Shown: positions 3,201-35,388 of the stretch, piece after piece
Position numbering within the stretch: the stretch's first letter is position 1
Layout of the letters: the number at the start of each line of letters is the position of its first letter
Origin: Balneolaceae bacterium
GTDB taxonomy: Bacteria; Bacteroidota; Rhodothermia; Balneolales; Balneolaceae
Reading direction: 5' to 3'
Assembly: GCA_017640605.1 (NCBI GenBank)
Contig: JAEPQH010000023.1
Location: 1 to 45,926, forward strand
Length of the DNA stretch: 45,926 nucleotides
Position numbers and translations under genes: made by a program
Notes under the pieces: generated by a model
Databases searched by the model: none
Told to the model about the DNA's origin: nothing
The model's input: only the letters and a program-made list of their open reading frames with translations

Positions 3201-3218
3201 ATGAATAGTTATTTAGAA

Positions 3219-16996: not shown

Positions 16997-17971
16997 CTAA
17001 AAATGAGTTCTTTGTGTGGAATAATTCGGGTTCACTGCAAGTTTGGGAGTACGATCAGCGCGGTAAAGTCCCCAGTGTTTTTCGGGCTCCCAGCGATCGG
17101 GCGAACCTTTCCAGTTTTCATCAAATGCTTCAAAATAAAAGGTAAGAATGCCGTTTTTTTCCGTCCATTCCATTAACTCTTCGAAATATATTTTTTGAAA
17201 ACCTTCGTTTACATTATCAGCTTCAATCCCTCTTCCATTCGATTTTGTTGCCCAACCCGCTTCGGTAATCACCACCGTTTTATCCGGAAATTTTTCTGCA
17301 ACCGAATAGTAATTTTGCTTGGTATATGCCAAACCCTCTGAAATATTTTTGTATTCCCAAACAGGGTAGCTGTGTATCGATATAAAATCCAGATACTCTG
17401 CTAAGTTGGAAAGTTTATGTAGCCATGGCACATAGTTTTCACAAAATGTAACTAGCTGTTTTGTATTAGCTTTAACTTTCTTTGAATAAGCTAACACATT
17501 TTTCTCCGGAACGTAGTGGTCTGTCCAATCCACGCAAGCCTCGTTACCGATCGAGAGAGAGAAAATGATATCCTCGTAGGTATTTCCAAGTTCAATGAGT
17601 GCATCAATTTTACGGCGATTGATTTCCTTGTTGGCTTCCAGCTCATCTTCGTCGTAAACACCGCCTCCCCAAGGACAATTAAAATTATTCACTTCTGCGC
17701 CAATGTCGGCACCAAGCATAATTTTGAAATCGAGTTGTTCTTTGCGAATCACCTCCAACACGGTATGCGCATGAGTACTGGAATCATACAGGCGTAGATA
17801 TTTCCACTCATCCTGCAAAATCAGTAAGTCCTCTTTTACCTGATCGTAGGTTGGATATTCTCCACCCGGGTATTGTCCATCTCTAAATCCGGAATAACAA
17901 ATTGCTTTACCTGGTTGCAGTCCTAATTGTTCAAAAGTATTCAAAGTCCTAGTATTTGAGTTTATTTTCAC
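16997..17971 (-). CDS. GH17 glycoside hydrolase, no signal peptide (start uncertain)
   Basis: This GH17 enzyme of about 324 residues is predicted to cut beta-1,3-glucan oligosaccharides. With the GTG start at 17971, the acid/base is Glu144 in SIGNEA and the nucleophile Glu237 in VITEAGWA, with IRLYD/HSYP-type barrel motifs around them (here LRLYDSS and SIHSYPVW). The start is unclear. An ATG at 18031 would overlap the upstream GH17 gene by more than 80 bp and add residues that look like read-through of the other frame. GTG 17971 or TTG 17944 are better, and the TTG lies just after the upstream stop. No secretion signal is seen, so it should be cytoplasmic. It is more like the GH17 lipoprotein at 22759-24057 (GNEA...TE(A/T)GWAT, YFEAFDE(N/Q)WK) than the two GH17 domains next to it. 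Confidence 0.88.
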   Translation of the reverse strand: MKINSNTRTLNTFEQLGLQPGKAICYSGFRDGQYPGGEYPTYDQVKEDLLILQDEWKYLRLYDSSTHAHTVLEVIRKEQLDFKIMLGADIGAEVNNFNCPWGGGVYDEDELEANKEINRRKIDALIELGNTYEDIIFSLSIGNEACVDWTDHYVPEKNVLAYSKKVKANTKQLVTFCENYVPWLHKLSNLAEYLDFISIHSYPVWEYKNISEGLAYTKQNYYSVAEKFPDKTVVITEAGWATKSNGRGIEADNVNEGFQKIYFEELMEWTEKNGILTFYFEAFDENWKGSPDRWEPEKHWGLYRADRTPKLAVNPNYSTQRTHF

Positions 17972-18854
17972 TGTCCCAGATACCCCAATAAGCTCCAACT
18001 TCCCCTTCGTCGCTTTTTTTCCATGCCTCATCAAAAGAGGAGAAATACATTATTTCTATCCCTTCGTCTTGTGCCCATAAATTGGCGTTAATAAAGTATT
18101 TCATGGCATTTTCTTCTGATGGAATCGCACCACCAAGTCCTTCTCCCTGGCTAGGCCATCCCGTTTCGGTAATGATAATTCGCTTACCATTCGCAGCAGC
18201 TTTGGCTTGATAAAACATTTGCCGCATGTGATTCAATGAATCCTGAAACGAGGTTCCCTCCCAATACGGGTAGCAGTTACAAAGCACTACATCGCAAGTT
18301 TCTGCCAATTCCGGATGCACGCTGAACTCGTAATAAGCATCTACATAGCCAACCGGTATATCGGGAATTTCTGCTTTCACTCGTTTGATATATTCGAGTA
18401 GTTGCTCGAGCGTTAGATCATTACGATACAGTACTTCATTTCCGACAGCGGCAACATCAACCATGCCTTTTTTAGCAAGTTCAATCAGCCCTTCAATTTC
18501 GGTCTCGTTTTTTTCTTCGTCGCTTCCCAGCCATGCACCAACCATGGTTTTTAAACCCAATTCTTTGGCTACTTCGGGCACCAATTCGTTGCCTTCGGTG
18601 GTAGAAAAAGAACGAATCCATTCACAATGATCATCAAGAATTTGCATTCTTCGCATAATCTGCGGTTTTGGAATGATATCTCCCGGCTCCTGTCCTTCTT
18701 CATACAAACTGAAGCAGAATCCATGAATTCCCTCGGTCAAAATCTCATGGAAAAGAGCATTGGTATCTTTTTGATCCAGCCCCTCGAGGTAATCAACTTT
18801 CGAGAGTAATGAGGATTTCTCGAAGCTTAGAAATTTTTCCTTTCTGTACGACAT
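17949..18854 (-). CDS. Cytoplasmic GH17 glycoside hydrolase
   Basis: This 301-residue single-domain GH17 has no signal peptide. The acid/base is Glu140 (AAVGNEV) and the nucleophile Glu230 (IITETGWP), exactly 90 residues apart. Other family landmarks are WIRSFST, CYPYWEG and YFSSFDEAWK. It aligns without gaps to the GH17 half of the neighbouring transporter fusion; I count about 100 identities over 190 positions, so the pair arose by duplication. It starts 2 bp after the fusion gene ends, in the same operon. The expected substrate is short beta-1,3-gluco-oligosaccharides already in the cytoplasm, working alongside the GH149-like phosphorylase. Whether it is an endo-, exo- or transglycosylating enzyme cannot be read from the sequence. 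Confidence 0.92.
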   Translation of the reverse strand: MSYRKEKFLSFEKSSLLSKVDYLEGLDQKDTNALFHEILTEGIHGFCFSLYEEGQEPGDIIPKPQIMRRMQILDDHCEWIRSFSTTEGNELVPEVAKELGLKTMVGAWLGSDEEKNETEIEGLIELAKKGMVDVAAVGNEVLYRNDLTLEQLLEYIKRVKAEIPDIPVGYVDAYYEFSVHPELAETCDVVLCNCYPYWEGTSFQDSLNHMRQMFYQAKAAANGKRIIITETGWPSQGEGLGGAIPSEENAMKYFINANLWAQDEGIEIMYFSSFDEAWKKSDEGEVGAYWGIWDSENKLKY

Positions 18855-18856
18855 GC

Positions 18857-21235
18857 TTATTTAATTTTTAGCTGTTCATCTTTATTCCAAAGTCCCCAAC
18901 GGGCTCCAACATCTCCTTCGTGGCGAACTTTCCACGATTCATCAAACGAAGAGAAGTAATACACATCGGTGTTATTCGCCTTACTCCAGCTCACCACGTT
19001 AATAAAGTATTTCATCATGTTAATCAGTGAGGGTTCTGCTTCTCCAACGGTTTGTCCCTGAGTTGGCCAACCGGTTTCGGAGATCACTACTTTTTTACCT
19101 CCACTTTTTGAGGATACCAAAGCGTGCATTTTTTCTATCACACTCATTGAATCTTCAATCGAATATCCTTCCCAGAACGGATAACAGTTGATCATTACCA
19201 CATCACAATATTCCAGTAATTCGGGATGATCCAGGAACACGAAATAGGCATCTACATATGCAACCGGTGTATTTGGCAGCTCTTCTTTCACACGTTTTAA
19301 GTATTCGATCACTTGTTCAACCGAAAGCTCGTTTCGCATAATGGTTTCGTTACCAACAGTGGCAATATCAACTGCGCCGGTTTTTGCCAGAGCAATCAGG
19401 CCTTTTATTTCTTTTTCGTTGTTTTCAAGGTTTGAGTCAATCCAAGCACCTACCACCGATTTGTTGTCGTATTTCTGCGCAATACCGGGCGTAAATTCAT
19501 TTCCACCGGTGGTTGAGAATGATCGAATCCACTGCACATGCTTCGACAGAATCTTCACTCGTTGCTCTATTTGTTGCTTCGATAATTGATCCTCGATGGT
19601 TTGATCGTCGCGATACGGGCTAAAACAAATTCCGGAGATTCCCTCCTCCAGTAATTCCAGAGATTTTTTCTTTAAGGTTGCTTCATCACTATCTAAATGG
19701 ATAGGTGTGTATGGATTCTCAACCTCTATTTTTTCGAATGTATTTAGTTTAGCCAGTTGGTAGTAACTGCTTTGTTTGGGCTCTACTTCTTTTACAGTTT
19801 TGCCCTTTTTTCTGGCTTCTAACTTCGCTCTGATTTCGTTCGCTCGTTCTTCGTCGATATCATACGACCACATTACCAGAATGGCTATAAAAGTACCGAG
19901 CATCGGCAAACCAGAGAAGAAAGCTCGCAGTCCGGTTATTCCTGGCCAAACTTCACCAATCGGGATCGGTCCGGGCAAGGCATCGGCACTGAATCCAACA
20001 ATGCTGAGAATAATGCCGCTTAATCCACCGGCAATTGCGAATCCAAATTTTACCATCCACCAGTAAATGGCTCCGAACACTCCTTCTCTTCGGATTCCAT
20101 AATTCAATTCATCCAAATCGATTACATCTGCGGTCATCGACATCATTAAGGTGAACAGGCTACCAATGCCAAAAGAGAAAAACGGCAATGCAAAAATGAA
20201 CATGTATGGCTTTCCCGGGATTAGTAGGAACCAGAACATCAAATAACCTACAATAGAAATGGATTGTGAAACGATAAAAGCACGTTTCTTGCCCATAATT
20301 TTTGACATCTTTGCGACAATGGGAATCACAATAAAAGTAGTTACAATAGCGCCTAGACTTCCAAATAAGGTCGGCCAGATACCTGCTGCGCCTGCATCCC
20401 CACCAAATAGGTGATATACAATTACGAAAAAGGTAAAGGCTGCAACGGTGTTAAATGCGTTGAATATCAAAAAAGTAGAAATACACAGCTTTCGGAAAGG
20501 CTTCGATTTAAAAGCTTCTTTAAAACTGTTGATGATCTCCTTAAATCCCTTGCCAATGTTCTTTACTGTGAGCGGCATATAATCATCGCGATCAACCGTT
20601 GATTCATCTTTGATGATGATGGCCGGAATCATCGCGCAAAACATGAAAATAATTCCGACCCAGGTAGCTAGTGTTCGAGTAGCAACTTCGGCAGATTCGA
20701 ACCAGGCCGGATCGTACATAATCACCCAGAACCAAGGTGCGATTACCCATGCCCACTGCCCAATCCATTGTGCAATAGCCATGATTTGCGTTCGCTCGTG
20801 AAAATCTTCACTCATTTCGTACCCCATGGCTACGTAAGGCACGCTGAATATTGTAAGTCCTAAAAAGAACGCAACCGAACATGCCATAAAATAAGTGAAG
20901 TTGTACATCACGCTGTTATCAGCATAGAGCTGCCACATGATGATGAAGCTAACGCCCATTACGATAGCGCCAAGAAACACATACTGTCTACGTCTGCCCC
21001 ATTTCGAACGTGTATTATCCGAAACAAAACCCATGATCGGATCAGTAAATGCATCAAACACACGCGGAAAAAAGAAAATAACCCCCCACATCCACCCGGG
21101 AAAGCCCAGATCCTGAACCAGAACAACCATAAAGATGCTCAACACAGCCGGGAACATCTGATTAGCCAACATTCCAAAGCCGAATGCTAGTTTATATGAA
21201 TAAGGGACACTCTTAGTTGTAACCTGTGTAGACAT
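18857..21235 (-). CDS. GPH-family sugar transporter fused to a GH17 domain
   Basis: This is a single 792-residue open frame. Residues 1-460 form a 12-helix glycoside-pentoside-hexuronide (MelB/MFS_2-type) carrier: DAFTDPIMGFVSD (about 61-73) followed by TRSKWGRRRQY is the family signature. A charged linker follows (about 461-500, EERANEIRAKLEARKKGK). Residues about 500-792 are a full GH17 domain with acid/base Glu630 and nucleophile Glu720. With 12 helices both ends face the cytoplasm, so the hydrolase would sit at the inner mouth of the carrier and cut beta-1,3-oligosaccharides as they arrive. Its GH17 half is paralogous to the next gene. The frame runs through the junction without disruption. 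Proton or sodium coupling is not determined. Confidence 0.93.
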   Translation of the reverse strand: MSTQVTTKSVPYSYKLAFGFGMLANQMFPAVLSIFMVVLVQDLGFPGWMWGVIFFFPRVFDAFTDPIMGFVSDNTRSKWGRRRQYVFLGAIVMGVSFIIMWQLYADNSVMYNFTYFMACSVAFFLGLTIFSVPYVAMGYEMSEDFHERTQIMAIAQWIGQWAWVIAPWFWVIMYDPAWFESAEVATRTLATWVGIIFMFCAMIPAIIIKDESTVDRDDYMPLTVKNIGKGFKEIINSFKEAFKSKPFRKLCISTFLIFNAFNTVAAFTFFVIVYHLFGGDAGAAGIWPTLFGSLGAIVTTFIVIPIVAKMSKIMGKKRAFIVSQSISIVGYLMFWFLLIPGKPYMFIFALPFFSFGIGSLFTLMMSMTADVIDLDELNYGIRREGVFGAIYWWMVKFGFAIAGGLSGIILSIVGFSADALPGPIPIGEVWPGITGLRAFFSGLPMLGTFIAILVMWSYDIDEERANEIRAKLEARKKGKTVKEVEPKQSSYYQLAKLNTFEKIEVENPYTPIHLDSDEATLKKKSLELLEEGISGICFSPYRDDQTIEDQLSKQQIEQRVKILSKHVQWIRSFSTTGGNEFTPGIAQKYDNKSVVGAWIDSNLENNEKEIKGLIALAKTGAVDIATVGNETIMRNELSVEQVIEYLKRVKEELPNTPVAYVDAYFVFLDHPELLEYCDVVMINCYPFWEGYSIEDSMSVIEKMHALVSSKSGGKKVVISETGWPTQGQTVGEAEPSLINMMKYFINVVSWSKANNTDVYYFSSFDESWKVRHEGDVGARWGLWNKDEQLKIK

Positions 21236-21257: not shown

Positions 21258-22757
21258 TTAAGATTTCTGCGAATTTATTACGATTGTTTGCAAAGCCTTT
21301 CCATCAATCGAAATCATCTCTGCCGCACCATCAAGCATGATGGAAAGTGTCTTTTCTTGCTCTGTCTGGTTTAATACTAACAGTGCAATGGAGCCATCGG
21401 GATTCTGAGCTGCCGTAATTAATAACTCATCGTCGTTGTGTTGATGTCCTATTCGGTAGGCATCAGGACGAATGAATCGGCTGAAATGAGCCATAGTGTA
21501 ATACAATGGAGTAAAGTACACTTCGTCGGCATCCGGATCTACGATAACCGGAGCAAGGCACCAATTATTTGCCCAATTTGGTCCGCCCTGCCGATCTAGC
21601 ACCATATTCCAATCAACCCAACCATCAACCCAATTATTGAGTGTTCCGATAATGTCTCGTGCATATCGATACACCGGCACATATTTCGGGTGCAAATACT
21701 TTCGATCATCCGGTGCCCAATCCCAACCCCAATCGGTTGCTTCTTTCGCCCAGTACCAATCATCGTCTTTCCAACGGGGCACATCTGCATCGGCGGTGGC
21801 TTCGGTTTGGATTAAATATTTATCCGGTGCAACTCGATGAGCATATTGAAGCGCTTCTTCGAACACATCGTATGTACTTGCATACCAGTGAATAGCCGTT
21901 CCATCAAAATATTTTGCGGCTTCTTCATCGCCGTACATTACATCCACCCATTCTTCCAAGTGATCACGGTTTTGATCGTAACCAAGAAGCACAACTTCCG
22001 GATGGGTTTTTTCGAGTTGTGGACCCAAATGGTTTTTCACAAACTCGTTCATTTCTTCGGCGGTGTAGTGCATACTTTCCCAGTTTTCCCCATTGCCGAG
22101 TGGTTCGTTTTCTACGGTGATTCCCCAGATATCAATGCCTTGGGCAGCATATGCATCTATATATTTTGAAAAGAACAATGCCCAGGTGTCGTAATATTCG
22201 GGTAACAACTTCCCACCTTTCCATGCATTATTGTCTTTCATCCAGATGGGGGCAGTCCATGGCGAAGAAATAATCTTAAATCCATCCTGCGATATTTCCA
22301 TTGCCTCTTTTATCATTGGGATGATATCGTCCATGTCTTCTTCAATCGAAAAATTCTCCAGGTTTACGTCGCCCGTAACCGGTGCGTAGGAGTAATTGCC
22401 AAGTGAGAAATCACTTGAATTCATGTGAGTACGAGTAAGCGAATATCTTGCTCCACTTTCCCCGAAATAAGCATCCAGAATAGTTGTTCGATTTTCTTCA
22501 CTCAACTGATTAAGCAAATATGCGCTGGACTCGGTGAATGATCCCCCAAAACCTGTAATTTTCTGAAATCTCTCTTCCGGATTTAACCGTATTTCAACCA
22601 CATTTTCACCAATATTAAATGCGGTTTTTTGAGTGAGTTGATTACCTGCAGCAGAAGTCTCAAATACTTCGAGGTTCATATTTTTTTCGTTAGAACAGTT
22701 AATTCCGATTAGCGCTGTTAGTAGAATGAGACTGGCTGTGATAAAACGATCATTCAT
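21258..22757 (-). CDS. GH30 (subfamily 1-like) beta-glucosidase lipoprotein
   Basis: This 499-residue lipoprotein (IGINCSN, Cys21) has a GH30 barrel plus C-terminal beta-sandwich. FQKITGFGGSFTESSAY opens the domain, VENEPL gives the acid/base Glu218, and IQTEAT gives the nucleophile Glu319. GH30 enzymes in marine laminarin loci act as exo-beta-1,6-glucosidases that remove side branches; this is family knowledge, not shown here. The lipid anchor places it in the periplasm or on the outer membrane, where it would debranch laminarin before import. It starts 1 bp after the GH17 lipoprotein gene and is followed by the transporter fusion 22 bp later. Glucosylceramidase-like or other beta-glucosidase activity is the alternative. 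Confidence 0.92.
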   Translation of the reverse strand: MNDRFITASLILLTALIGINCSNEKNMNLEVFETSAAGNQLTQKTAFNIGENVVEIRLNPEERFQKITGFGGSFTESSAYLLNQLSEENRTTILDAYFGESGARYSLTRTHMNSSDFSLGNYSYAPVTGDVNLENFSIEEDMDDIIPMIKEAMEISQDGFKIISSPWTAPIWMKDNNAWKGGKLLPEYYDTWALFFSKYIDAYAAQGIDIWGITVENEPLGNGENWESMHYTAEEMNEFVKNHLGPQLEKTHPEVVLLGYDQNRDHLEEWVDVMYGDEEAAKYFDGTAIHWYASTYDVFEEALQYAHRVAPDKYLIQTEATADADVPRWKDDDWYWAKEATDWGWDWAPDDRKYLHPKYVPVYRYARDIIGTLNNWVDGWVDWNMVLDRQGGPNWANNWCLAPVIVDPDADEVYFTPLYYTMAHFSRFIRPDAYRIGHQHNDDELLITAAQNPDGSIALLVLNQTEQEKTLSIMLDGAAEMISIDGKALQTIVINSQKS

Positions 22758-22758
22758 A

Positions 22759-24057
22759 TCATTCCTCTTCGCTCAGGCGTTGTTGGATTTCTTCGTCGGT
22801 TGGTGGAACCAGCACCGTTTTCATCATGGCGTCATAATCACCACCAAAAGTTTTGGTGATGGGCTTTCCATCTCGGGTTAATCCTTCGAAGACACCTTCA
22901 TCCACTAAATCCCAAATCGCATATTTTGCCTCAGAGTTTAAGTTGATTAAGCCAAAATGGTTTTCCGATCCCAGTGGGTTCATGGCATCTTTCCATTGCT
23001 CATCAAAAGCCTCGAAGTAGAAAATCGAAATATTGTTCTCGTCGCCCCAAGCTCTGATTTCATCGTGATATTTACCCGATTTATACTCGTCGATGGCATT
23101 GGCTCCACCTTCCCCATAAAACTCGTTGGAAATGGTAGCCCAACCCGTTTCACCAATATGAACCGGTTTATCCACTCCAATACTCTTCATGTAATTGACC
23201 ACACTGTAGTATTGATCTTCGGAATATTGCAGGGCACGCGCCATGGCATTGTCTATTTTTTCCATATCGGTTAGATCTTCTTCTTCAGCTCGTACTCCCC
23301 AAAACTGTGGATTGTAATGCGTATCGTGCATCGGATAAGTGTGTACTGATAAGAAATCAACGGCACGGATAAGCGAGTCTAGCGCCGGTTTGTGATAACT
23401 TTCACTTCCGCCTCCCCAACTTGCAAAATTATCGGAGCTGGTGATCCATAAATTTTCCGGTAATTCGCCGTTATCACGCATCTTACGCAAATGATTCACC
23501 CACTTAAGAATGATAGTTGGTTCTACATAATATTCAGTAGCCCAATGAACCATGGCTTCGTTACCTACGGCAATTATCTTTACGATATCGGGGTATTGAT
23601 TAGCCAGTTCTGCAGCTCGTGCAATTTCAGTACTATTTCTTGGTGCATCTTGATTTCTGATGCGTTCCGGTTCGTCGGTCCATGCATTTTTAGCATCAAT
23701 CCACGCACCAAGCATCACATACATTTCAAAAGAATCATCTTCTTTTTTCAGTTCGTCAATGGCTTTTAGCACGTTCGAAGCGTGAGGCAAATGCACGTTG
23801 TACGTACGTATGAGCTTAATTCCCATCGCGTGAAGAATGCGCATATCCTCTTTCAGTTCTTCGATGGTAGGCTGAATATCTCGGGTATTTTCGCGGTATC
23901 CACCGTACGAAATGGCTTGGTACTCATTATTCCCCAAAATTTCTTCTGCTGTCTTATTTCTATTATCCATAGATGATTCAGATCGGTTTTCGCATGAAAT
24001 ACTTAGCAGCGATGCTAAAAAGAAAATCAGTATATGATGAAATGTTCGCATGCTCAC
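22759..24057 (-). CDS. GH17-family lipoprotein
   Basis: This 432-residue exported GH17-type enzyme has a lipoprotein signal (FFLASLLSISC, Cys22). The acid/base is Glu167 (IAVGNEAMVHW) and the nucleophile Glu303 (HIGETGWAT); LIRTYNV, LSVHTYP and YFEAFDEQWK complete the barrel pattern. A C-terminal extension of about 60 residues beyond the barrel (EGLTRDGKPITKTFGGDYD...) is not seen in the other GH17 proteins here. It begins 6 bp after the phosphorylase gene. Likely work is endo- or exo-cleavage of beta-1,3-glucan in the periplasm or at the surface. Among the four GH17 domains here it is closest in style to the one at 16997-17971, so the operon holds two exported/cytoplasmic GH17 lineages. Confidence 0.88.
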   Translation of the reverse strand: MSMRTFHHILIFFLASLLSISCENRSESSMDNRNKTAEEILGNNEYQAISYGGYRENTRDIQPTIEELKEDMRILHAMGIKLIRTYNVHLPHASNVLKAIDELKKEDDSFEMYVMLGAWIDAKNAWTDEPERIRNQDAPRNSTEIARAAELANQYPDIVKIIAVGNEAMVHWATEYYVEPTIILKWVNHLRKMRDNGELPENLWITSSDNFASWGGGSESYHKPALDSLIRAVDFLSVHTYPMHDTHYNPQFWGVRAEEEDLTDMEKIDNAMARALQYSEDQYYSVVNYMKSIGVDKPVHIGETGWATISNEFYGEGGANAIDEYKSGKYHDEIRAWGDENNISIFYFEAFDEQWKDAMNPLGSENHFGLINLNSEAKYAIWDLVDEGVFEGLTRDGKPITKTFGGDYDAMMKTVLVPPTDEEIQQRLSEEE

Positions 24058-24063
24058 CTCTGC

Positions 24064-27000
24064 CTAGTTTTTATTAATTCTGTGTTCGCTGATCGAAACT
24101 TTCAGCTTGGTTACTTCACCGGTCCGCCCAAAGATCATTGCGCTGGTAGCCTTATCAAGAGAACGACCGCTAAATGATTGAGAAGCTCCGTTTTTCAAAT
24201 AGGCTTCGATCCCGTCTTGTTCTTCGATCTTGTAGATTACAGGAACCTGACAATAACTGAATGCAAGTGCATTTTTCGGAACCACAACTTCAACTGCATT
24301 TCCATCAATATTGGTAATCTGATAGCTACCGGGTTCATTTACAAATTCTGATTTTCGGAGTAATACAGGATTAAAACTCAATATTCCATCCTCCACTTCA
24401 ATTCCGAGTTCCCCAATTCTAGCAAGGATATCTTCCTTCACCTGCCCGGTCATTCCCGGTTGCTGCGCTCCGCGGTGATAAGGAGTATGCGAGTACGGGT
24501 CGGTTGGGAAAGCACCATATACTTCTGGTGATTTATGAATCCCAATGCCTTCACCTATTTCATAGAAATGAGCGGCAAGTCTGTTTTTTATGGATTCATC
24601 AACGTCTGCCTTTTCTGCCTGATCGCAAACTTCGTACGCTGCCAGATACAACTTCGAAACCATGTGCCAGTAAATAGATCCCAATCCTTCGTAGCCGTAA
24701 AAGGTGCCTGAACGACCGGTAAATGCTTTGTGATTGAACACTTTTTCGAATGCGGATAAAATCTGAGATCGCTCTTTTTCTGCAAGCGCCTCAAATTCAG
24801 TTCCATCTAATGCATCCAAAGCGACTCCCAGATCGTTGGCATTTTTGAAATTGCCGTTGAAATGATAGCCGCCGTTTACATCTTTACTTACGATACGCCG
24901 ATCACCGGCTTCTACCATTTTAGTGAGTAGTTCAGAATTCAGGACGGCCGATTCATGCAAGTTATTACGATCTAAGAATCCGGGTAATTCTTTGTTTGGA
25001 TACAAGATATAGCTCTCCTGATCTTCTCTGTACAGTGAGCTTTTCTTTAAAGCATCCAACACTTTCAGCGATTCTTCGGCTTTCAAATACCCCGAACTCA
25101 ACACGGCAACCTGACCTTCCAACATTTCATCGAGATAAGAAATACTGATCCCATCTCCTTCGATGCTCATAATGTTATACGCATGATACAAATCATCTTC
25201 GCGCTTGTTCGCACGGATGGAATGTTCAAGATATTCGTTGGTAATAGATGCAAAATCTCGCACTTCAGAAATGGAAACGGGAGTTAACTCCCCTGAAAAT
25301 CCATTGTTATAGATGGTGTTTCTAAAGCTTGCAGCGGCCTTGCCAAGTGCGTCGGTTACAGCTTTTCGTTGTTCATCATTTACATCACCAGTAAGCAAGC
25401 CACGGTGTTGAACAAGAGTATTCAGGATTGAAGTAAAACAATCTTTAAGCTCAACAGAAATCCCTACCTCATTGTCATCAACTTTCTCTAGAACTTGTTC
25501 CAGATGCGATAAAAACCGGCGTAAGTAATAAAGAGTAACCATCGAAACTCCATTACCCACAAGTGCATTATTCGCATCATTCCACTCGGGACGTTGCGTG
25601 TTCATCCAGATACCACCTTCGGGTATAAAGTTCGAAACTTTGGCCAGCGTGGTTGCTAATAACTTCTCTAATAAACTAACCCGATGAATCTCAGATTGCC
25701 GGTTGTTAAGCAGCGCACCGTCTGCTCCAATTTCGGCTACTTTTTCGCGAATAACCTCATCCGAATCAGCATCAAAATCGATGGTGTCTTTCGGGTTTTT
25801 AGCAATATCTTCGTAGCTTTTAATTCGATAAGGAACATTAGCATACACAAACACATCTTCATCCATTAAGGCCGGGAAAGCGTCCGGTTGATGCTTCTCG
25901 TACAGTTCAAGGAATTTGAGTAAATAGATGATTTGGTGATCGCCCCAATAACCAATATACGACCATGGATCGTCCGGCTCGATGGTTTCCCAATCAAATC
26001 CGCCTTTGGTAACCCGATAAGGATTGTAGCCATCGAAGGTGGTGGCGTTTAAGAATTTGAAGATCATGCCTTCCAAAAACTTCGGATAAGAGTGCGCCAA
26101 AGCTTCCCAGTTCTGGAAAATATCACGCCAGTTTCCTTCGTAATCCAGTATTTTGGAACCATCTTCGTGATGGGTATTTATGGAAAATTTGTTCCATGGA
26201 CGACTAGGATCACCGTGGCGACGGCTAAACTTTAAAGGCAAATATTCCTTGGCGAGTCGTACCAAGTCGGCGTCTTCATTGCCTTCTATTCGTTCTAAAA
26301 GCAATGTCTGTTCGAACTCCTCCGGCAAACCATCGATAAGAGTTCTATTTCGATTAAATGTTGGTTTGCTGGCATTTTTCAGATACTTGGCAAAATCATC
26401 TTTCTCGATGCGATAGTGATGATCGAAAATACCCCCACGCATAATATTGAATAGAACGTTCGAATAATGCCGGGCATCTTTAAGTGCATCCGAACTTAGT
26501 TGCATCCCATCAGATTGTGCCACCAGATTTTTTAGTTTCTTTGTGCCGGCAACAACATTTTCGTCTACTTTGCGCTGGAGTTCATCTACATCAGCCTTAA
26601 TCTGCTCGTTCAAGGCGATAGTGCCGGCATGATTTTGATTCACGTTGGCAACAATATTCCACGATTCGTAGGTATTCGCCCCCATGGTAAATTCGGAGCA
26701 AATGAAATACGCACCTTTTTCACCTTTTACATCATGTTCAGTTTGAACTTTTTGGCCAATTCTAAATGCATCTAATTGAAGGGATGAAACAAGATAGGTT
26801 GGATTTTGAAGTCCGGTTGACCAAACTACATTAGCTTTTAATGCTTCACTCGGTTCAGCTTTATCTACAGGAATAGCGCTTAGTGCATAAATACCTAACC
26901 CTGTTTCCGCAACTAGTTCTGATCGTTTATAGGCATCCAATAGGTTACTGGATCGAACTTGCAAATCGCTATTAACACTGGCTGGGAGTACGTTTTGTAT

Positions 27001-27531
27001 CCCATCAAGTACCGTAAGCTCACAGGCACTGTCTGCATTATTTTGAATGGTAGATGTACGAACAAAGCCATATTCATTACTTGATTTCCATTCGTAGCGA
27101 AATGATAAATTCAAATCATGATTTATCTCTTCGAATAAGATTTTATTTCCCCATTGGCTCTTGTATAAATTTTGAGTGGTTTGATATCTGTGGGAATCTC
27201 GCTTTGAAAATGGCTCCCAAACTTGTACATCGTCGTTGTTGCGAACCTGTATAATGGTTTTAGACCCGGTGATATCAGCAGCTTCGGTTATTTTATCGTC
27301 GGTGTAATAAGGAAATAATGCGTATTCCGAATTTTTTCGGCCGGCAGAAACCCCGCCATTGCTTGAAATAAACATCCAGTGATTAGAATCACTGACGATG
27401 CTCATAAAAAAAGGTCGAATCTGATCAGAATTCGAAATTTTAAAATACGGTTCGTTATTTATGGTTACTGCTTCCAATTTTTGTTGTCCCGATTTATTAT
27501 CCCTCTTATTTAGGGTGGATGAATCATTCAT
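24064..27531 (-). CDS. GH149-like beta-1,3-oligoglucan phosphorylase
   Basis: This is a 1155-residue cytoplasmic protein without a signal peptide, with the build of large GH94-related inverting phosphorylases: an N-terminal beta-sandwich (about 30-300), a linker helix, an (alpha/alpha)6 barrel (about 340-1000) and a small C-terminal domain. The likely general acid is Asp470 in GNWRDIFQNW; GYWGDHQ (about 527-533) and NDANNALVGNG (about 672-682) are further barrel landmarks. The length fits GH149 and is well above GH161 and GH94 enzymes. GH149 converts beta-1,3-oligoglucans and phosphate to glucose-1-phosphate. Flanking GH16, GH17 and GH30 genes strongly support a laminarin role. The family assignment is from memory of motifs, length and context, so GH161 is the alternative. 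It is 62 bp after the GH16 gene. Confidence 0.85.
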   Translation of the reverse strand: MNDSSTLNKRDNKSGQQKLEAVTINNEPYFKISNSDQIRPFFMSIVSDSNHWMFISSNGGVSAGRKNSEYALFPYYTDDKITEAADITGSKTIIQVRNNDDVQVWEPFSKRDSHRYQTTQNLYKSQWGNKILFEEINHDLNLSFRYEWKSSNEYGFVRTSTIQNNADSACELTVLDGIQNVLPASVNSDLQVRSSNLLDAYKRSELVAETGLGIYALSAIPVDKAEPSEALKANVVWSTGLQNPTYLVSSLQLDAFRIGQKVQTEHDVKGEKGAYFICSEFTMGANTYESWNIVANVNQNHAGTIALNEQIKADVDELQRKVDENVVAGTKKLKNLVAQSDGMQLSSDALKDARHYSNVLFNIMRGGIFDHHYRIEKDDFAKYLKNASKPTFNRNRTLIDGLPEEFEQTLLLERIEGNEDADLVRLAKEYLPLKFSRRHGDPSRPWNKFSINTHHEDGSKILDYEGNWRDIFQNWEALAHSYPKFLEGMIFKFLNATTFDGYNPYRVTKGGFDWETIEPDDPWSYIGYWGDHQIIYLLKFLELYEKHQPDAFPALMDEDVFVYANVPYRIKSYEDIAKNPKDTIDFDADSDEVIREKVAEIGADGALLNNRQSEIHRVSLLEKLLATTLAKVSNFIPEGGIWMNTQRPEWNDANNALVGNGVSMVTLYYLRRFLSHLEQVLEKVDDNEVGISVELKDCFTSILNTLVQHRGLLTGDVNDEQRKAVTDALGKAAASFRNTIYNNGFSGELTPVSISEVRDFASITNEYLEHSIRANKREDDLYHAYNIMSIEGDGISISYLDEMLEGQVAVLSSGYLKAEESLKVLDALKKSSLYREDQESYILYPNKELPGFLDRNNLHESAVLNSELLTKMVEAGDRRIVSKDVNGGYHFNGNFKNANDLGVALDALDGTEFEALAEKERSQILSAFEKVFNHKAFTGRSGTFYGYEGLGSIYWHMVSKLYLAAYEVCDQAEKADVDESIKNRLAAHFYEIGEGIGIHKSPEVYGAFPTDPYSHTPYHRGAQQPGMTGQVKEDILARIGELGIEVEDGILSFNPVLLRKSEFVNEPGSYQITNIDGNAVEVVVPKNALAFSYCQVPVIYKIEEQDGIEAYLKNGASQSFSGRSLDKATSAMIFGRTGEVTKLKVSISEHRINKN

Positions 27532-27593: not shown

Positions 27594-28427
27594 CTAATTA
27601 TCGTGGGCGTAAACGCGCACATAATCAACATACATAGCCTGTGGAAATGGAGTACTACTGTTTGGTGAGCCTACAAATGAACCACCAACTGCAACGTTTA
27701 GAATGATGTAAAAAACATTATCGTTAAATACCCATTCTCCGTTTACATCGGCTGGGGTGATTTCGTTATATAGTTCATCATCTACGAAATAGCGGATAAA
27801 ATCCGGGCCCCATTCGATGGCAAATACGTGAAATTCGGAATCGAAGCGACCTGATCGAAGAGAATATTCGTCGGTTACTGCTTGTCCTGCAGAGTATCCC
27901 GGACCATGCACACTTCCATGAATAATTGTGGGCTGCTGTCCTCGATATTCCATGATATCAATCTCCCCGATTTGTGGCCAAATAACGGATCCATTAGAAT
28001 CATCGCCAAGTAACCAGAAAGCAGGCCATATTCCTTGCCCGAATGGTAGCAGAATACGCGCTTCATATCTGCCATAAGTTCGTTCGAATAATCCACGGGT
28101 TAGTATTTTGGCAGATGTATATCCGGAACCGTTAAAATTTTCTTTTCTGGCAGTTATCTCGAGCAGACCGTTTTCTACCTTTATATTTTCGGGTCGGTCG
28201 GTGTAATATTGCAGCTCATTGTTTCCCCATCCCGGTGTACCAAAAATTTCAACACCTGTACCAATATCAAATAACCATTTAGTGGTATCGATGGAACCTT
28301 CAGTATCAAATTCGTCGGACCAAACTAAGGTATTGAACTCATTTTCGGGTTCGTTGTTACTCTCCGTACATGCTTGAAAAACAATCATGCAGGAAAGTAA
28401 AACGATACTAAGTACTCTTGCTTTCAT
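27594..28427 (-). CDS. GH16 laminarinase (endo-beta-1,3-glucanase) lipoprotein
   Basis: The product is a 277-residue lipoprotein (VFQACTE, Cys20) consisting of a single GH16 beta-jellyroll. The active-site strand is GEIDIME: nucleophile Glu155, Asp157 and acid/base Glu160. The E-x-D-x-x-E spacing is the laminarinase form. WGNNELQYYT and GIWPAFWLLG are the classic substrate-cleft motifs of subfamily GH16_3. It would make the first endo-cuts in laminarin at the cell surface. It follows the binding lipoprotein gene by 27 bp in the operon. No extra binding module or T9SS tail is present. Confidence 0.95.
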   Translation of the reverse strand: MKARVLSIVLLSCMIVFQACTESNNEPENEFNTLVWSDEFDTEGSIDTTKWLFDIGTGVEIFGTPGWGNNELQYYTDRPENIKVENGLLEITARKENFNGSGYTSAKILTRGLFERTYGRYEARILLPFGQGIWPAFWLLGDDSNGSVIWPQIGEIDIMEYRGQQPTIIHGSVHGPGYSAGQAVTDEYSLRSGRFDSEFHVFAIEWGPDFIRYFVDDELYNEITPADVNGEWVFNDNVFYIILNVAVGGSFVGSPNSSTPFPQAMYVDYVRVYAHDN

Positions 28428-28454: not shown

Positions 28455-30986
28455 TTAATTTTGTTGGATGTTGTCGATGTAGAAGGTTCCGGTACTCGTT
28501 CCGGGGCCGTCCATAAAGATGGTTACTCTTGGGAAGGAGTCGCTTGAGGTGAAATTGAACGTTAGTTCTTCCCATCCCGACCCGCTATGATTTTGAGCTA
28601 CTTCCACAAAAGCTCCCTGATCAACTTCAATTTTTAGTAATACCGGAATTGCTGAAGTCGAGTACACATCCATTGTAATGGTTTGGCCATTTCCAAAATC
28701 CAGATTGTTCTCCAAATCGAAATAAATACCTTCCCATTGTGCGCCGGAATTTGTGATGGATCCCACTTTTGACGCAGTGTTATTTGATCCCGATACATTC
28801 GGGTTATCAACTACTTCATAAACAGTACCGTTGAAAGTAGTGGCCGAATAATTTACCTGATCATCATCAAAGGTAATTGGGAGATTTGGTGCGGTTTTTG
28901 AACCTCCACCACCACTTGAACCATCGGTGTAGTAGTAAATGTTATCTACATATACATCAGAAATGGTGGCATCAGATACAAAGAAAATCAATCCAATCTG
29001 GTCTTGTGCAGCTAAGTTAAAGTCTGATAGTGGAACATCAAAACTCACCCACTCGCCTTCTCGGAGCACCCCCGAACTGAAGGTTACCGATCCGGATGAT
29101 TCATTATTTCCAACCGAATTTATGAGCTGTAATCGGATGAAATCGCCATTAGAAATAGCTTCATTCACGTAAAGATCCACATGAATGTGCGTCATTTCCG
29201 AAGCGTCTACCGTTGGGTTTGATTGATTTGGATCTACTCCGGTACCAATTCCAACAAAGTTCAATGCTGTGTAATGGATAATCCCGTCACCATTAATTAC
29301 TACGTCAGCGCCTTGTGGACCACCATCAAATCCGGTTCCACCTTGCGTGGTTTGTCCGTCGTTGTTGAAGAAACCGTTGTAATAATCAACCGGTACATTC
29401 GTGTATGCATCACTAAATATGGATACCACACTATCGGGATCAACAGTAGGTACGGGAGCAGTGACGATATCGGCACCGTTTCCGCCGCCATTACCGCCTC
29501 CACCTCCATTTGAGCCACCAGAACCGTCGTTATAATAATAAATATTATCTACATAGATATCGGAAATTGTAGCGTCACTCACAAAGAAGATGAGACCTAA
29601 TGATGAACGATCGGCAAGATTGAAATCAGCCAGAGGGATGTCGAGACTTAACCAATCGTTTTCCAATAACTGATCGGAACCGATTCTAACTGAGCCTGAG
29701 GTTTCTCCATTACCAACTGAGTTAAGCAGTTGTATGGTAATGTAATCACCGGGATCAATTCCCTCTTGTACGTTGATGTCTACATGCATGTGAGTCATGT
29801 CGGTTGCATCAATCGAAGGAACATTCAAGAATGTACCAATACCTACGAAATTCAGTTCAGTATAATTGATAATTCCATCGCCATCCACAACTATGTCAGC
29901 GCCCGGGGGACCTCCTTCAAACCCGGTACCGCCTAGTGTGGTTTGTCCATCGCCATTAAAGAAGCCGTTGTAATAATCAACCGGAACATTGGTGTATGCA
30001 TCACTAAAGATTGATATCACACTATCGGGATCGACGGTGGGTACAGGTGCGGTTTCAAAAGTCCCTTGTGAAATCAGATTTACCGAGCCTGAGGCTTGCA
30101 CGCCTCCCACAGAGGCCGTTATTGTAGCATTTCCTTCACCAACTACGGTTATTACACCTTGGTTGTTAACGGTTGCAACTGCAGGATTAGAGGATGAAAA
30201 ATCGAAATAACCTGCACCAACACTTAGCATTACATCCTGAGCAGTAGTAGTTTCATCAGGAAGAGTAATGATGGTGTTCAATGTTTGCTGGAAATCTGTG
30301 ATTTCGTAGGTGAGATTTACAAAACTTGAAATTGTAATATCACGACCGTTTAAAATAGAAGGGCGTGGTTGTGCAATAGTACCAAGTTTTTCGAATTTCA
30401 GATCATCAATCCAAAAACTGTATCCGGCACCATCTTCAGGGTTTTCAGCGAACCAAAACATGCCATCAATGGCCATAAGTTTTTCAGGCTCCGGAATTGG
30501 AATTACGTACTTTTTCCAGAATGTGGATAAACGGAGGCTATCAACCCTAACTTCGAAACTGTTGTTACCTTCCAAGCCTTGCCCAAAACCAATACTGTTA
30601 ATAGTTCCGGCTTTGGTTCCTTTCGCGTAGAAAGTAAACGCATCATATTCGCTTAGATTACGTCCCCCATTTAAATCAATAAAAGCAGCGCCTGCATAAG
30701 AACCCGATGGATCATCAGGATTCGGTACGTCGATTCGCATAGAAGCCGCTGAATTATCGAAAGTTACTTCGGTATCCACCTGAAATGCATCAAGTTTGGC
30801 AAAACCATCATCGTATGGAAAATATTCCAATCCTGAACTGAATCCGTCAATAAAAACATCCGGATTATTGGTTAGGGATGGTTCACTTAGTCCATCTACC
30901 GAGCGTTCACAACCTGCCATTAAAAAGATGACAAGTAAACCTGCATATAACGAACGAGTCATAATAGTTAAATTTAAATCTTTCAT
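28455..30986 (-). CDS. Multi-module surface glycan-binding lipoprotein
   Basis: This 843-residue lipoprotein (FLMAGCE, Cys26) has no visible catalytic site. Domain order: a CBM11/CIA30-like jelly roll (about 45-200, ending YSFWIDDLKFEKL), a bacterial Ig-like BIG_2 domain (about 215-307, SSSNPAVATVNNQGVITVVG), two tandem near-copies of one binding module (about 312-488 and 509-689), joined by a Gly/Asn/Ser-rich linker, then a CBM4-like module (about 700-843, FYIDNIQQN). The tandem module shares PTVD...SVISIFSDAYT and MTHxHVD with the secreted protein at 15528-16904. It fills the place of a SusE/F-like surface glycan-binding protein, expected to hold laminarin for the GH16 enzyme encoded next. 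A start at Met9 instead of Met1 is possible. It lies 13 bp after the barrel-fusion gene. Confidence 0.87.
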   Translation of the reverse strand: MKDLNLTIMTRSLYAGLLVIFLMAGCERSVDGLSEPSLTNNPDVFIDGFSSGLEYFPYDDGFAKLDAFQVDTEVTFDNSAASMRIDVPNPDDPSGSYAGAAFIDLNGGRNLSEYDAFTFYAKGTKAGTINSIGFGQGLEGNNSFEVRVDSLRLSTFWKKYVIPIPEPEKLMAIDGMFWFAENPEDGAGYSFWIDDLKFEKLGTIAQPRPSILNGRDITISSFVNLTYEITDFQQTLNTIITLPDETTTAQDVMLSVGAGYFDFSSSNPAVATVNNQGVITVVGEGNATITASVGGVQASGSVNLISQGTFETAPVPTVDPDSVISIFSDAYTNVPVDYYNGFFNGDGQTTLGGTGFEGGPPGADIVVDGDGIINYTELNFVGIGTFLNVPSIDATDMTHMHVDINVQEGIDPGDYITIQLLNSVGNGETSGSVRIGSDQLLENDWLSLDIPLADFNLADRSSLGLIFFVSDATISDIYVDNIYYYNDGSGGSNGGGGGNGGGNGADIVTAPVPTVDPDSVVSIFSDAYTNVPVDYYNGFFNNDGQTTQGGTGFDGGPQGADVVINGDGIIHYTALNFVGIGTGVDPNQSNPTVDASEMTHIHVDLYVNEAISNGDFIRLQLINSVGNNESSGSVTFSSGVLREGEWVSFDVPLSDFNLAAQDQIGLIFFVSDATISDVYVDNIYYYTDGSSGGGGSKTAPNLPITFDDDQVNYSATTFNGTVYEVVDNPNVSGSNNTASKVGSITNSGAQWEGIYFDLENNLDFGNGQTITMDVYSTSAIPVLLKIEVDQGAFVEVAQNHSGSGWEELTFNFTSSDSFPRVTIFMDGPGTSTGTFYIDNIQQN
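28920..30053 (-). repeat. Tandem duplication of a binding module inside the surface lipoprotein gene
   Basis: Two segments of about 530-540 bp (29523-30053 and 28920-29462) code for module copies that keep long identical stretches, such as TAPVPTVDPDSV and FSDAYTNVPVDYYNGFFN. They are divided by a GGGGG-rich linker. The high similarity points to a fairly recent internal duplication, and makes the region prone to assembly collapse or recombination. Confidence 0.8.
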
Positions 30987-30999
30987 TTACTTATCTCTT

Positions 31000-33900
31000 T
31001 TAATTTCTGATATCAATTTGAATGTAGGTACGAATTTCCCACTCCGAACCATTGCCTAAGGCTTCGGCTCCGGGTTGTAAGGTTACTTCGCCGGTTGCCG
31101 GATCTACATCAGCCAAAGAATATCTGGGCGAATACTGATTCAGCGTTCTGTATGTGCCGCGTACGCCAAGTCTGGTAGTTGGCAAATCGAACCAATCAGG
31201 TTTGCCTAAGGTGGTTGAAATGTCTGCCATCAATTGCATTGGATACGTTTGATTGAAATCGCGGTGGTAATCAAAAGGACCCCAATCGTTGAAACGAGCA
31301 AATGAATTCACTTTCATATTCTTGTAGATCAATTGAAGATCGGTTCCAAAACGAGTGATTTTACGGGGATCATTACCATTAGCCTGGCCATCACCGCCAT
31401 AAATCATGGCAACAAATCCTAAATCTCTATTCAATTTCGATACAATACGAGCATTTACTTCAATTAAATCTTCGGCAGGTGCTGAGCCATTAAAAGCAAA
31501 GGTTGTTCGTCCATCAGGTAAAATACCAATTGCAGCATCCTGCTCTGTAGGTAAATGGCGATATACAACTCCTAAACTAACAGCTAATCGAGCATCTTCC
31601 GAGCGATTGCTGTCCCAGTTGTACATCCATGTTCCCGGGGTTGGGTCCCAGGTAAGTACTAACTCACCGGCAGTTTGCTCTCTGTTCGATCGCACTGCAA
31701 AAGGATCGTCAATAAAGTTTCGTGGGCGTGCTGGACCATCTATTCCTGCCGGAATTGGACCTTCGATCGGTTTTTGCCATAAGAAATTGGGAGCAATTTG
31801 GAGATTACCAATCGTGTACGTTAAACCTGTTAAGAAATTCATTTGGTTGCCACTACCGCTGTCTTTCAATCTCCAACCGGTGTAGGTAATGGTTTGATCG
31901 GCACCACCATTAGCAACCAATCCTTGAATTGCGCCCTGACTGTACCAATTAAACAAACCACCAGTATAAGTCAGCTTCAACTTACCGCCCCAATTGTCCA
32001 TCGGTTTGATTTCATCTACATAGGCATTGTACGTTCCATCCGGGTTTTCTCGTACAAGTTGAAATTCGCGACCATTTAGTGGCTGACCTGCCCAAATACC
32101 ACCAGCTTCCACACCAACTTTTCCGAATTCTCGGGCAGCATATAAAGTAAAGCGACGGGTTTTTGGCTGAGGAATTGCAAACGAACTTTCTGTAGTTCCT
32201 TGTTGCTCCAGATCTTCATGGAAAATTCCCGTTACTTCCGTATTTCCGATCATTCTCGTGTATTTGATCAAGAAAGCCGGGTTTGCTCCCCACCATAATT
32301 CAGGACCAAAAGCAGCTTTTAATCCATCGAACTGATAACGCCCTTCCACTTCGAAACCGAAAGGTGCAGTTCCATTGTAAATGTCAATGTTTGGGCCGTA
32401 ATTAGCTTCAGGGTATAATCCAAAGAAATCACCTTCATATCCCCAATGATAATGCCCAGTTCGATAGAAGCCATCAATTTCGAAATATTTGCTGGTCCAG
32501 GTATACTCTGCGCTGTAAATAGCTACACGATTCACATCATTTAGAGTGATGAGTTCTTCTCTCCCTTCCACCTCAACTGGGCGACCTCTATTCTCATAAA
32601 AGATTTCGTCTATTGGATTCCCCGGCACGTTTCCGAGAATACTAGTAACCAAATTTGCTCTGATGTTCGGAGCAGGATTAGCTTCCACGCCAATAAAGAA
32701 GGTTTCCAAGTGATCGAAGCCCTGTTGTGTTGGATATTCCCGCATATTGGGATTTGGCTCTTCCGGCGTAGTAATATAAGTACCACCTGTGCTGTAGGTT
32801 CTAAAATCGGCCGTAAATTGGCTAAGCTTGATGATATCAGCCGATGCTGAATTTAATGCAGCTTTATCGCCACGAGCCTTTAATACTGCACCTTGAATAG
32901 AAATTCCCTCAAAAAATTCGTTCAGATCGGTGATGGAAGCATCTTCGTCGTATACATCATATCTATGCGCTTCTTGCAATACGTAATAAGCAGCACGAGG
33001 GAATAATTCATAATATCCATTTGGATCAGTTGGTCCTTTCGCCGTAATCCCAAACCACTCTTCATTCATGTTATTCTCTCCTTCAGCAAAATCGTATTGG
33101 TATCCACCATTCGCCCAAGAAGCATTAATATCATGTACATCTAAATTCTCAACTTGACCGAATTTCCACCAACCATCACTAAATTGGAAAGTAAATCCAC
33201 CAATTGAGTTATTTGCTCTTCCCATACCTGCAGCATTGGCATAAACATCTTTCCAATTATTTTTCTTAATAAATGCCTGATCTGCTTGCGCCTCAGTTAA
33301 CGTTCTGGCGTTAAAAGCATCCACACCAAATTCTGTGAGTAATACAGGCTTGCCATATTCTTCAGCCACTCGATCGTAGAGATCGGTAAAAGTTGGACCT
33401 CGATAGGTGTTAATACCTAAAATATCTACATCAGGTGCTTCTTCAATAATGTGTTCCAGGAAAAGAAGATCACCATTACAAATTGCAACCGGTCGTGAAG
33501 AATCAATTTGCTTCATCCGAACAGCAGCTTCGTTCATTAAGCTATACATAGGTTTTCCGCGCGTTTCACCCACAAAAGCTTGCTCTGAAGCATCATCGGG
33601 AAAATCCTCCGTTTCCGCACCGGCCCAGAAAAGTCCGTAGTTATTCTCGTTACCGAGTAGGTATAGTAAAAGTCCTTTGGTGTCGGCATAGGTGGCAGCC
33701 AATTCGGTTACTTCGCTAAGTAGAAGCTCCATCGTTCTGGGATCATCATATTCGGTAACCGGTTCCCAAACACCATCGATTGTTAAACCATATCTACCAA
33801 ACGAGTGGTTAAGCATGGTATAAATTCCGTAATTCTCATAAATGTAGGTTATCCATTCGGGTTGAATGCCGGTGTATACCCGAATTGCATTAACTCCCAT

Positions 33901-34152
33901 ATTTTGAAGTAAACCCATTTCATAATCGAGCGCCTTTTTTATGAATGCCGGATCTTGATTCCAAAGGCTGTATGAATAGTTTGTCCCTCTGGGAAAGTAA
34001 TCCCAGTTCATTCCATTTATCATTAATGGCTTTCCATCTACCATCATTACCCAGCCTTCGTCAGTCATAGTGACTTCTACATTATCTGACTGCGCATAGG
34101 AATAAATTGAGAGAAGAAAAGTTAGTGCTAAAAACGTGGTGATTTTTTTCAT
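31000..34152 (-). CDS. GH-A clan TIM-barrel glycosidase fused to a predicted outer-membrane beta-barrel
   Basis: This 1050-residue protein is the first of the operon. A signal peptide (1-20, SIYSYAQS) is followed by a GH2/GH5-like TIM barrel (about 28-400). Acid/base Glu169 lies in LLGNEN and nucleophile Glu274 in LLTEFG, with MINGMNWDYFPRG and VNAIRVYTG as early landmarks; the exact family is not recognised. From about 440 to the end the sequence changes to alternating amphipathic strands with aromatic girdles and Gly/Asn-rich turns (YFEIDGFYRTGHYHWGY, GFEVEGRYQFDG, RFTLYAAREFG), like an outer-membrane barrel of about 600 residues. It ends TYIQIDIRN rather than with Phe. I infer a surface or periplasmic glycosidase anchored in, or gating, an outer-membrane pore. 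The operon has no SusC, so a transport role is plausible but untested. Confidence 0.75.
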   Translation of the reverse strand: MKKITTFLALTFLLSIYSYAQSDNVEVTMTDEGWVMMVDGKPLMINGMNWDYFPRGTNYSYSLWNQDPAFIKKALDYEMGLLQNMGVNAIRVYTGIQPEWITYIYENYGIYTMLNHSFGRYGLTIDGVWEPVTEYDDPRTMELLLSEVTELAATYADTKGLLLYLLGNENNYGLFWAGAETEDFPDDASEQAFVGETRGKPMYSLMNEAAVRMKQIDSSRPVAICNGDLLFLEHIIEEAPDVDILGINTYRGPTFTDLYDRVAEEYGKPVLLTEFGVDAFNARTLTEAQADQAFIKKNNWKDVYANAAGMGRANNSIGGFTFQFSDGWWKFGQVENLDVHDINASWANGGYQYDFAEGENNMNEEWFGITAKGPTDPNGYYELFPRAAYYVLQEAHRYDVYDEDASITDLNEFFEGISIQGAVLKARGDKAALNSASADIIKLSQFTADFRTYSTGGTYITTPEEPNPNMREYPTQQGFDHLETFFIGVEANPAPNIRANLVTSILGNVPGNPIDEIFYENRGRPVEVEGREELITLNDVNRVAIYSAEYTWTSKYFEIDGFYRTGHYHWGYEGDFFGLYPEANYGPNIDIYNGTAPFGFEVEGRYQFDGLKAAFGPELWWGANPAFLIKYTRMIGNTEVTGIFHEDLEQQGTTESSFAIPQPKTRRFTLYAAREFGKVGVEAGGIWAGQPLNGREFQLVRENPDGTYNAYVDEIKPMDNWGGKLKLTYTGGLFNWYSQGAIQGLVANGGADQTITYTGWRLKDSGSGNQMNFLTGLTYTIGNLQIAPNFLWQKPIEGPIPAGIDGPARPRNFIDDPFAVRSNREQTAGELVLTWDPTPGTWMYNWDSNRSEDARLAVSLGVVYRHLPTEQDAAIGILPDGRTTFAFNGSAPAEDLIEVNARIVSKLNRDLGFVAMIYGGDGQANGNDPRKITRFGTDLQLIYKNMKVNSFARFNDWGPFDYHRDFNQTYPMQLMADISTTLGKPDWFDLPTTRLGVRGTYRTLNQYSPRYSLADVDPATGEVTLQPGAEALGNGSEWEIRTYIQIDIRN

Positions 34153-35269: not shown

Positions 35270-35388
35270 GCCCTTTTTTTATTTTTTTTGAAATTATTTC
35301 ACAAATAAGCCAAAACAGTGACAATCGGAATGATTTAATTGTATTTATCGCTTTGGATAGGACTGTAATCTTTAAAAAAACTTTGCGA

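Follow-up and report, generated by a model that had tools for sequence, protein, structure and literature searches.

A GH-A glycosidase fused to a predicted outer-membrane barrel, a candidate SusC/SusD-free route for beta-1,3-glucan uptake

A single gene of a Balneolaceae bacterium encodes a GH-A glycosidase joined to a predicted outer-membrane beta-barrel. It occupies 31000..34152 on the minus strand of the window (the whole 45,926-nucleotide stretch of DNA that was analysed), where it heads a tight same-strand run of beta-1,3-glucan genes. On balance, the product fairly likely takes up glucan across the outer membrane independently of TonB and carries its own periplasmic hydrolase, with a surface GH16 enzyme and a glucan-binding lipoprotein feeding the pore. 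The predicted fold and the gene linkage are well supported; pore conduction, the location of the enzyme and the coupling of cleavage to entry are what we infer. The chances are about even that the family constitutes a widespread TonB-independent machine for polysaccharide uptake, with its pore and periplasmic hydrolase united in one polypeptide and its substrate drawn inward by hydrolysis where it leaves the pore. The substrate is probably an algal or fungal beta-1,3-glucan, judging from the neighbouring genes and the fold.

The fusion gene is an intact open reading frame with an ATG start and 1050 codons for amino acids, all of its parts lying on the minus strand. A Sec signal peptide (residues 1-20, MKKITTFLALTFLLSIYSYA, 34093..34152), modelled as a helix from residue 2 to 18, is followed by the GH-A TIM-barrel module (residues 21-420, 32893..34092), a helical linker predicted with low confidence (residues 421-439, 32836..32892) and an outer-membrane beta-barrel module of about 24 strands without a TonB plug (residues 440-1050, 31003..32835). 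An assembly artefact or chance read-through is ruled out by the presence of the same fusion in many independent genomes. The earlier note had proposed a GH-A enzyme, with catalytic glutamates at 169 and 274, joined to a barrel of the outer membrane, and this anatomy holds: in the structure prediction that the note had named as a check, the C-terminal part folds as a membrane barrel rather than a set of soluble modules, and both glutamates are present and invariant. In the full-length model (pTM 0.53), the orientation of the TIM module relative to the barrel is not usable.

The barrel assignment draws on several lines of evidence. AlphaFold2, given residues 422-1050 alone and 101 sequences, returns a closed barrel with a pLDDT of 82.1 and a pTM of 0.81. 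Two plasmid-record rows were left out of the structure-prediction input. Secondary structure alone yields 26 strands if a hairpin at 696-714 is included, but relatives carry insertions at 696-714, as outer loops do, and the count is therefore set at 24. None of 2000 within-strand shuffles reaches the alternation of hydropathy between inward and outward positions seen along the 24 assigned strands. On one side the loops have a mean length of 23 residues, whereas the turns on the other are mostly of 2 residues and average 5. The prediction thus has the closed amphipathic meander, with short turns opposite long loops, of an outer-membrane beta-barrel, and the model, the PDB matches and the alternation test together rule out soluble beta-sandwich modules in its place.

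All top structural matches of the barrel in the PDB are outer-membrane barrels, including AlgE (Z 14.8), Occ/OprD and MOMP (about 14), the FimD/PapC ushers (about 13, covering nearly the whole model), maltoporin (12.7) and chitoporin (12.6). Foldseek reaches an E-value of 5.7e-9, with TonB receptors among its matches at 1e-6 to 1e-8. At the sequence level, the barrel falls outside all Pfam and NCBIfam models, and PDB sequence searches with the single protein or with a barrel profile return no match. A SusC or other TonB-dependent transporter in disguise is ruled out because the plug domain is not found: neither a TonB plug nor a carboxypeptidase-like domain is matched by Pfam in the fusion protein or in 22 barrel modules, and the window's real SusC matches both in the Pfam scan. 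The position of AlgE as nearest barrel by Z would suit an export or envelope role, in which the barrel moves self-made beta-glucan outward in the manner of AlgE or PgaA and the enzyme is a trimming hydrolase. Such a role is very improbable, as the AlgE match is partial (about 260 of 629 model residues), no synthase is found among the operon genes scanned, and the neighbours are degradative (GH149, GH17, GH30, GH16 and a GPH-type MFS permease).

Outer loops of ordinary porins vary. The fusion barrel shows the opposite pattern, as its long-side segments 564-597, 619-625, 744-769 and 957-969 are nearly invariant, with mean column entropies of 0.36, 0.08, 0.52 and 0.17 against 1.06 for the strands. 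The long segment of residues 564-597 (RTGHYHWGYEGDFFGLYPEANYGPNIDIYNGTAP, 32362..32463, minus strand), is predicted in the model to lie on the outer side or to fold into the lumen and is a candidate selectivity loop. The loops could also plug the barrel.

The enzyme half resembles known beta-1,3-glucanases in fold. The nearest solved folds to residues 21-420 belong to GH158 (Z 28.5 for 9oro/9p2f at about 19% identity, and 27.4 for 6pal), followed by GH157 (Z 27.3) and then by GH2 and GH5 enzymes. Glu169 (in GNENNYG; codon 33646-33648) and Glu274 (in TEFG; codon 33331-33333) are invariant in 47 full-length relatives and in 22 TIM modules, enzyme-only ones included. The module has the GH-A barrel and catalytic glutamate pair expected of GH158, a combination common to all of clan GH-A. 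A profile of the 22 TIM modules matches BuGH158 (E 2.8e-7) and GH158(Pro) (7.7e-5) through a broken alignment, with GH157 and GH2 scoring next; no Pfam model reaches its cut-off over the TIM half, and an NCBIfam search of the window protein gives no match. Because of the broken alignment and the lack of a Pfam or NCBIfam assignment, the module is placed near GH158 and GH157 and membership is not claimed. GH2 architecture is absent, since the TIM barrel directly follows the signal peptide without jelly-roll or Ig-like domains and there is no GH2 Pfam match. Fold and neighbours together suggest activity on beta-1,3-glucan.

The genes that follow on the minus strand are consistent with such a substrate. 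Thirteen nucleotides past the fusion gene lies an 843-residue lipoprotein (28455..30986) with Ig-like and CBM-like modules (Pfam Big_2 and a sub-threshold CBM_4_9), a candidate surface glucan-binding partner. Next come a GH16 lipoprotein (27594..28427; Pfam 3.8e-23), a candidate surface endo-beta-1,3-glucanase; a GH149 1,3-beta-D-glucan phosphorylase with no signal peptide seen (24064..27531; NCBIfam NF058639, 1741.6 bits against a cut-off of 1150); a GH17-like lipoprotein with a lipobox cysteine, predicted to be periplasmic (22759..24057; Pfam 1.3e-5, just below cut-off); and a GH30 enzyme of the beta-1,6-glucanase/glucosidase type (21258..22757; Pfam 5.3e-79). The run continues with an MFS (GPH-type) permease fused to a GH17 domain (18857..21235; Pfam MFS_2 4e-65, GH17 1.1e-12) and two GH17 enzymes (17949..18854, Pfam 3.8e-14; and 16997..18034, Pfam 6.2e-7), the listed TTG start of the second overlapping the previous gene. 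As the earlier note had it, the operon lacks SusC: the window's only SusC/SusD pair (1644-6233) lies more than 10 kb away, past an opposite-strand gene, and adjoins PAP2 and FG-GAP genes. The source genome holds three SusD genes in total. Another of its SusC/SusD pairs (locus L179, C13) stands beside two GH_cc (GH128-type) enzymes, a sulfatase and a GH2 enzyme and might also serve beta-glucan. On the plus strand of the window, 35353-36861 encodes a 502-residue protein with a formate/nitrite-type transporter domain followed by a DsbA-like thioredoxin domain.

The link between the fusion and the surface-type lipoproteins is conserved. In each of the 81 fused loci whose following gene is readable, that gene encodes a CBM-type lipoprotein, which none of 13 enzyme-only loci has in this place; in fused loci a lipoprotein GH16 usually comes after it. 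A further locus (L126/L186) has a different next gene, with a CBM-like gene just upstream. In a quick tree, five supported independent pairs nearly always agree with this association (p 0.0625, above 0.05 taken alone). Acidic residues past the lipobox cysteine are a known surface-export feature of Bacteroidota (PMC5080379). With lipoboxes located by a simple self-made pattern, acidic residues at +2 to +7 average 2.77 in the CBM lipoprotein and 1.97 in GH16, against 0.72 in GH17, 0.68 in GH30 and 0.75 in four enzyme-only lipoproteins. This contrast suggests that the CBM lipoprotein and GH16 are exposed at the surface and that the enzyme is periplasmic. An even-stranded barrel has both ends in the periplasm, which should put the N-terminal enzyme on that side.

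A different topology is that of an autotransporter-like arrangement, in which the barrel would display the TIM enzyme, the N-terminal part, on the outside of the cell, much as esterase autotransporters do. The order of parts matches, with enzyme first and barrel last, and the linker is helical. Nevertheless this display is improbable: autotransporter barrels have 12 strands in the classical type and 16 in type Vd, and the classical C-terminal barrel spans about 300 residues, whereas the fusion barrel has about 24 strands over about 610 residues. Moreover, the few lipoprotein enzyme-only relatives carry periplasmic-looking signals, and the cluster already includes a GH16 whose signal is of the surface type.

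Full-length fused relatives, 54-85% identical and each in a single open reading frame, occur in hundreds of genomes of Bacteroidota and their relatives. Fused proteins are found in the window's own family, across the sampled phylum and in about one genome in four among 396 from a single flavobacterial family. A species-representative collection holds at least 578 confirmed contig stretches, which may be fused, enzyme-only or partial; the best 80 of these were read and include, by title, one Ignavibacteriota and one Acidobacteriota bin. The system reaches a gut genus, since the fusion is present in a Bacteroides finegoldii record (L111:11867-22903) together with a lipoprotein, GH16 and a fimbrillin-family protein, with GH3 further on and no SusC/SusD within the stretch shown. 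Among 296 genomes, 29 have a barrel match and every complete copy is fused; the barrel as an independent mobile module is rejected, as it was never found alone.

Enzyme-only relatives of 430-480 residues exist, and some are lipoproteins. Their genes are scattered among fused ones in the quick tree, which requires nine changes, six of them forced by supported branches. Decayed barrel starts (the first 35-90 residues) persist behind the enzyme gene, ahead of the gene that follows, at four enzyme-only or broken loci (L141, L170, L169 and L140), so the barrel was lost at least at these loci. More distant TIM relatives of 335-352 residues and about 27% identity (L171:8145-9203, L172:7892-8899 and L173:6420-7430) lie in GH149-GH17-GH30-MFS clusters of other genomes, where they seem to occupy the position of the fusion's enzyme. 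A 685-residue relative (L167:7379-9436) has a TIM module followed by about 260 residues without a match to the barrel.

That the enzyme-only relatives manage without a barrel, some of them as lipoproteins, and that anchored enzymes are common would fit a barrel that is only an anchor, holding a periplasmic or surface beta-glucanase and docking the CBM lipoprotein and GH16 while general porins or another importer admit the oligosaccharides. We regard this as unlikely. A 610-residue barrel with nearly invariant loops is costly where a lipid anchor serves relatives, and the barrel is kept in genomes without SusD.

Among 70 fusion genomes that are 96-100% complete, four lack SusD by both Pfam models (PF07980 and PF14322), and two of the four (G150 and G317) also have no SusC above cut-off. 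In three of them, G150 and G317 included, genes for the fusion, CBM lipoprotein, a regulator-like protein, GH16 and MFS are consecutive; the fourth, G218, has a different arrangement. Enzyme-only genes have SusC/SusD upstream in a few loci only, and in L131 and L136 a SusC-SusD-(CBM)-GH16 order stands just upstream of the enzyme-only gene. A strict rule of either barrel or SusC/SusD is ruled out by L080, L085 and L098, the 3 of 61 fused loci with at least 5 kb upstream that hold both. Because of these three loci, and since most fusion genomes carry SusD elsewhere, the barrel is not always the sole route. Other TonB receptors are present in all six genomes checked, SusD-less ones included; together with SusD elsewhere, this confines independence from SusC/SusD to gene content. 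The idea of an uptake pore in an operon without SusC is partly supported, gaining from the lipoprotein and GH16 linkage, the contrast with enzyme-only loci and the SusD-less fusion genomes.

In the proposed uptake mechanism, surface GH16 would cleave a laminarin-type glucan, and the CBM lipoprotein would keep the glucan above the barrel. Oligosaccharides would then cross the barrel with selectivity set by the four nearly invariant long-side segments, and the tethered TIM enzyme at the periplasmic mouth would trim them as they arrive. Breakdown would be completed, in line with the scheme for Formosa (PMC6246565), by the GH17 and GH30 enzymes, the MFS(-GH17) permease and, in the cytosol, the GH149 phosphorylase. 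The work of SusC/SusD would in this way be done without TonB, by diffusion pulled by hydrolysis.

The gene itself is not new, since the protein is common and one database record already labels it 'glycoside hydrolase family 2 TIM barrel-domain containing protein'. The 'GH2' gene in a Muricauda laminarin locus (PMC13188888) may also be this fusion, as its place and neighbours fit. Only the barrel seems to have gone unnoticed so far. The earlier note's view that no enzyme of this build had been described survives in part: no description of an enzyme-barrel fusion was found in open-access full texts, subscription journals lying mostly outside that coverage. The novelty is the architecture and the possible SusC/SusD-free route, not the rarity of the gene. 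Laminarin is among the largest marine sugar pools, and SusC/SusD genes are the usual marker for its uptake by Bacteroidota. If an enzyme-pore fusion is able to carry out uptake, searches based on SusC/SusD would miss many clusters, some routes for large glycans would be TonB-free, providing an alternative to the SusC/SusD paradigm, and the barrel family, which lacks a model in Pfam and NCBIfam, would have to be named. The fusion also provides a clean test case for whether pore-tethered enzymes speed entry.

Several known systems share parts of this design. AlgE, OprD/Occ, maltoporin and chitoporin are likewise outer-membrane barrels without a TonB plug, and several pass sugars; they have 16-18 strands and no fused enzyme, whereas the fusion barrel has about 24 predicted strands and no detectable sequence kinship to them. 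The ushers FimD and PapC have a 24-stranded barrel that matches across nearly the whole model, but they serve pilus secretion and their plug and periplasmic domains are missing from the fusion barrel. Autotransporters with enzyme passengers share the N-terminal enzyme and C-terminal barrel and differ in strand number and in sending the passenger to the surface. The GH158 endo-beta-1,3-glucanases (BuGH158, 6pal; GH158(Pro), 9oro) and GH157 share the GH-A fold, the paired catalytic glutamates and a beta-1,3-glucan context, although identity is 18-19%, the profile match is partial and the solved members all lack a membrane barrel.

A parallel may also be drawn with the SusC/SusD utilisome of Bacteroidota, described for levan and dextran systems (PMC7618045). 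Both co-encode an outer-membrane barrel, a surface glycan-binding lipoprotein and a surface glycoside hydrolase, and SusC-SusD takes a similar place in the enzyme-only loci L131 and L136. The fusion differs in having no TonB plug and no SusD, its partner lipoprotein lacking the SusD domain of the lid; its barrel family is unrelated, and its barrel and a hydrolase share one covalent chain. In Formosa, the same MFS-GH17 fusion as in this operon (FbGH17b) has been proposed to couple hydrolysis and uptake (PMC6246565). FbGH17b likewise unites a transporter and a beta-1,3-glucan hydrolase in one protein at the same kind of locus, but at the inner membrane, with an MFS fold and a GH17 enzyme, and its homologue is encoded a few genes from the predicted outer-membrane fusion.
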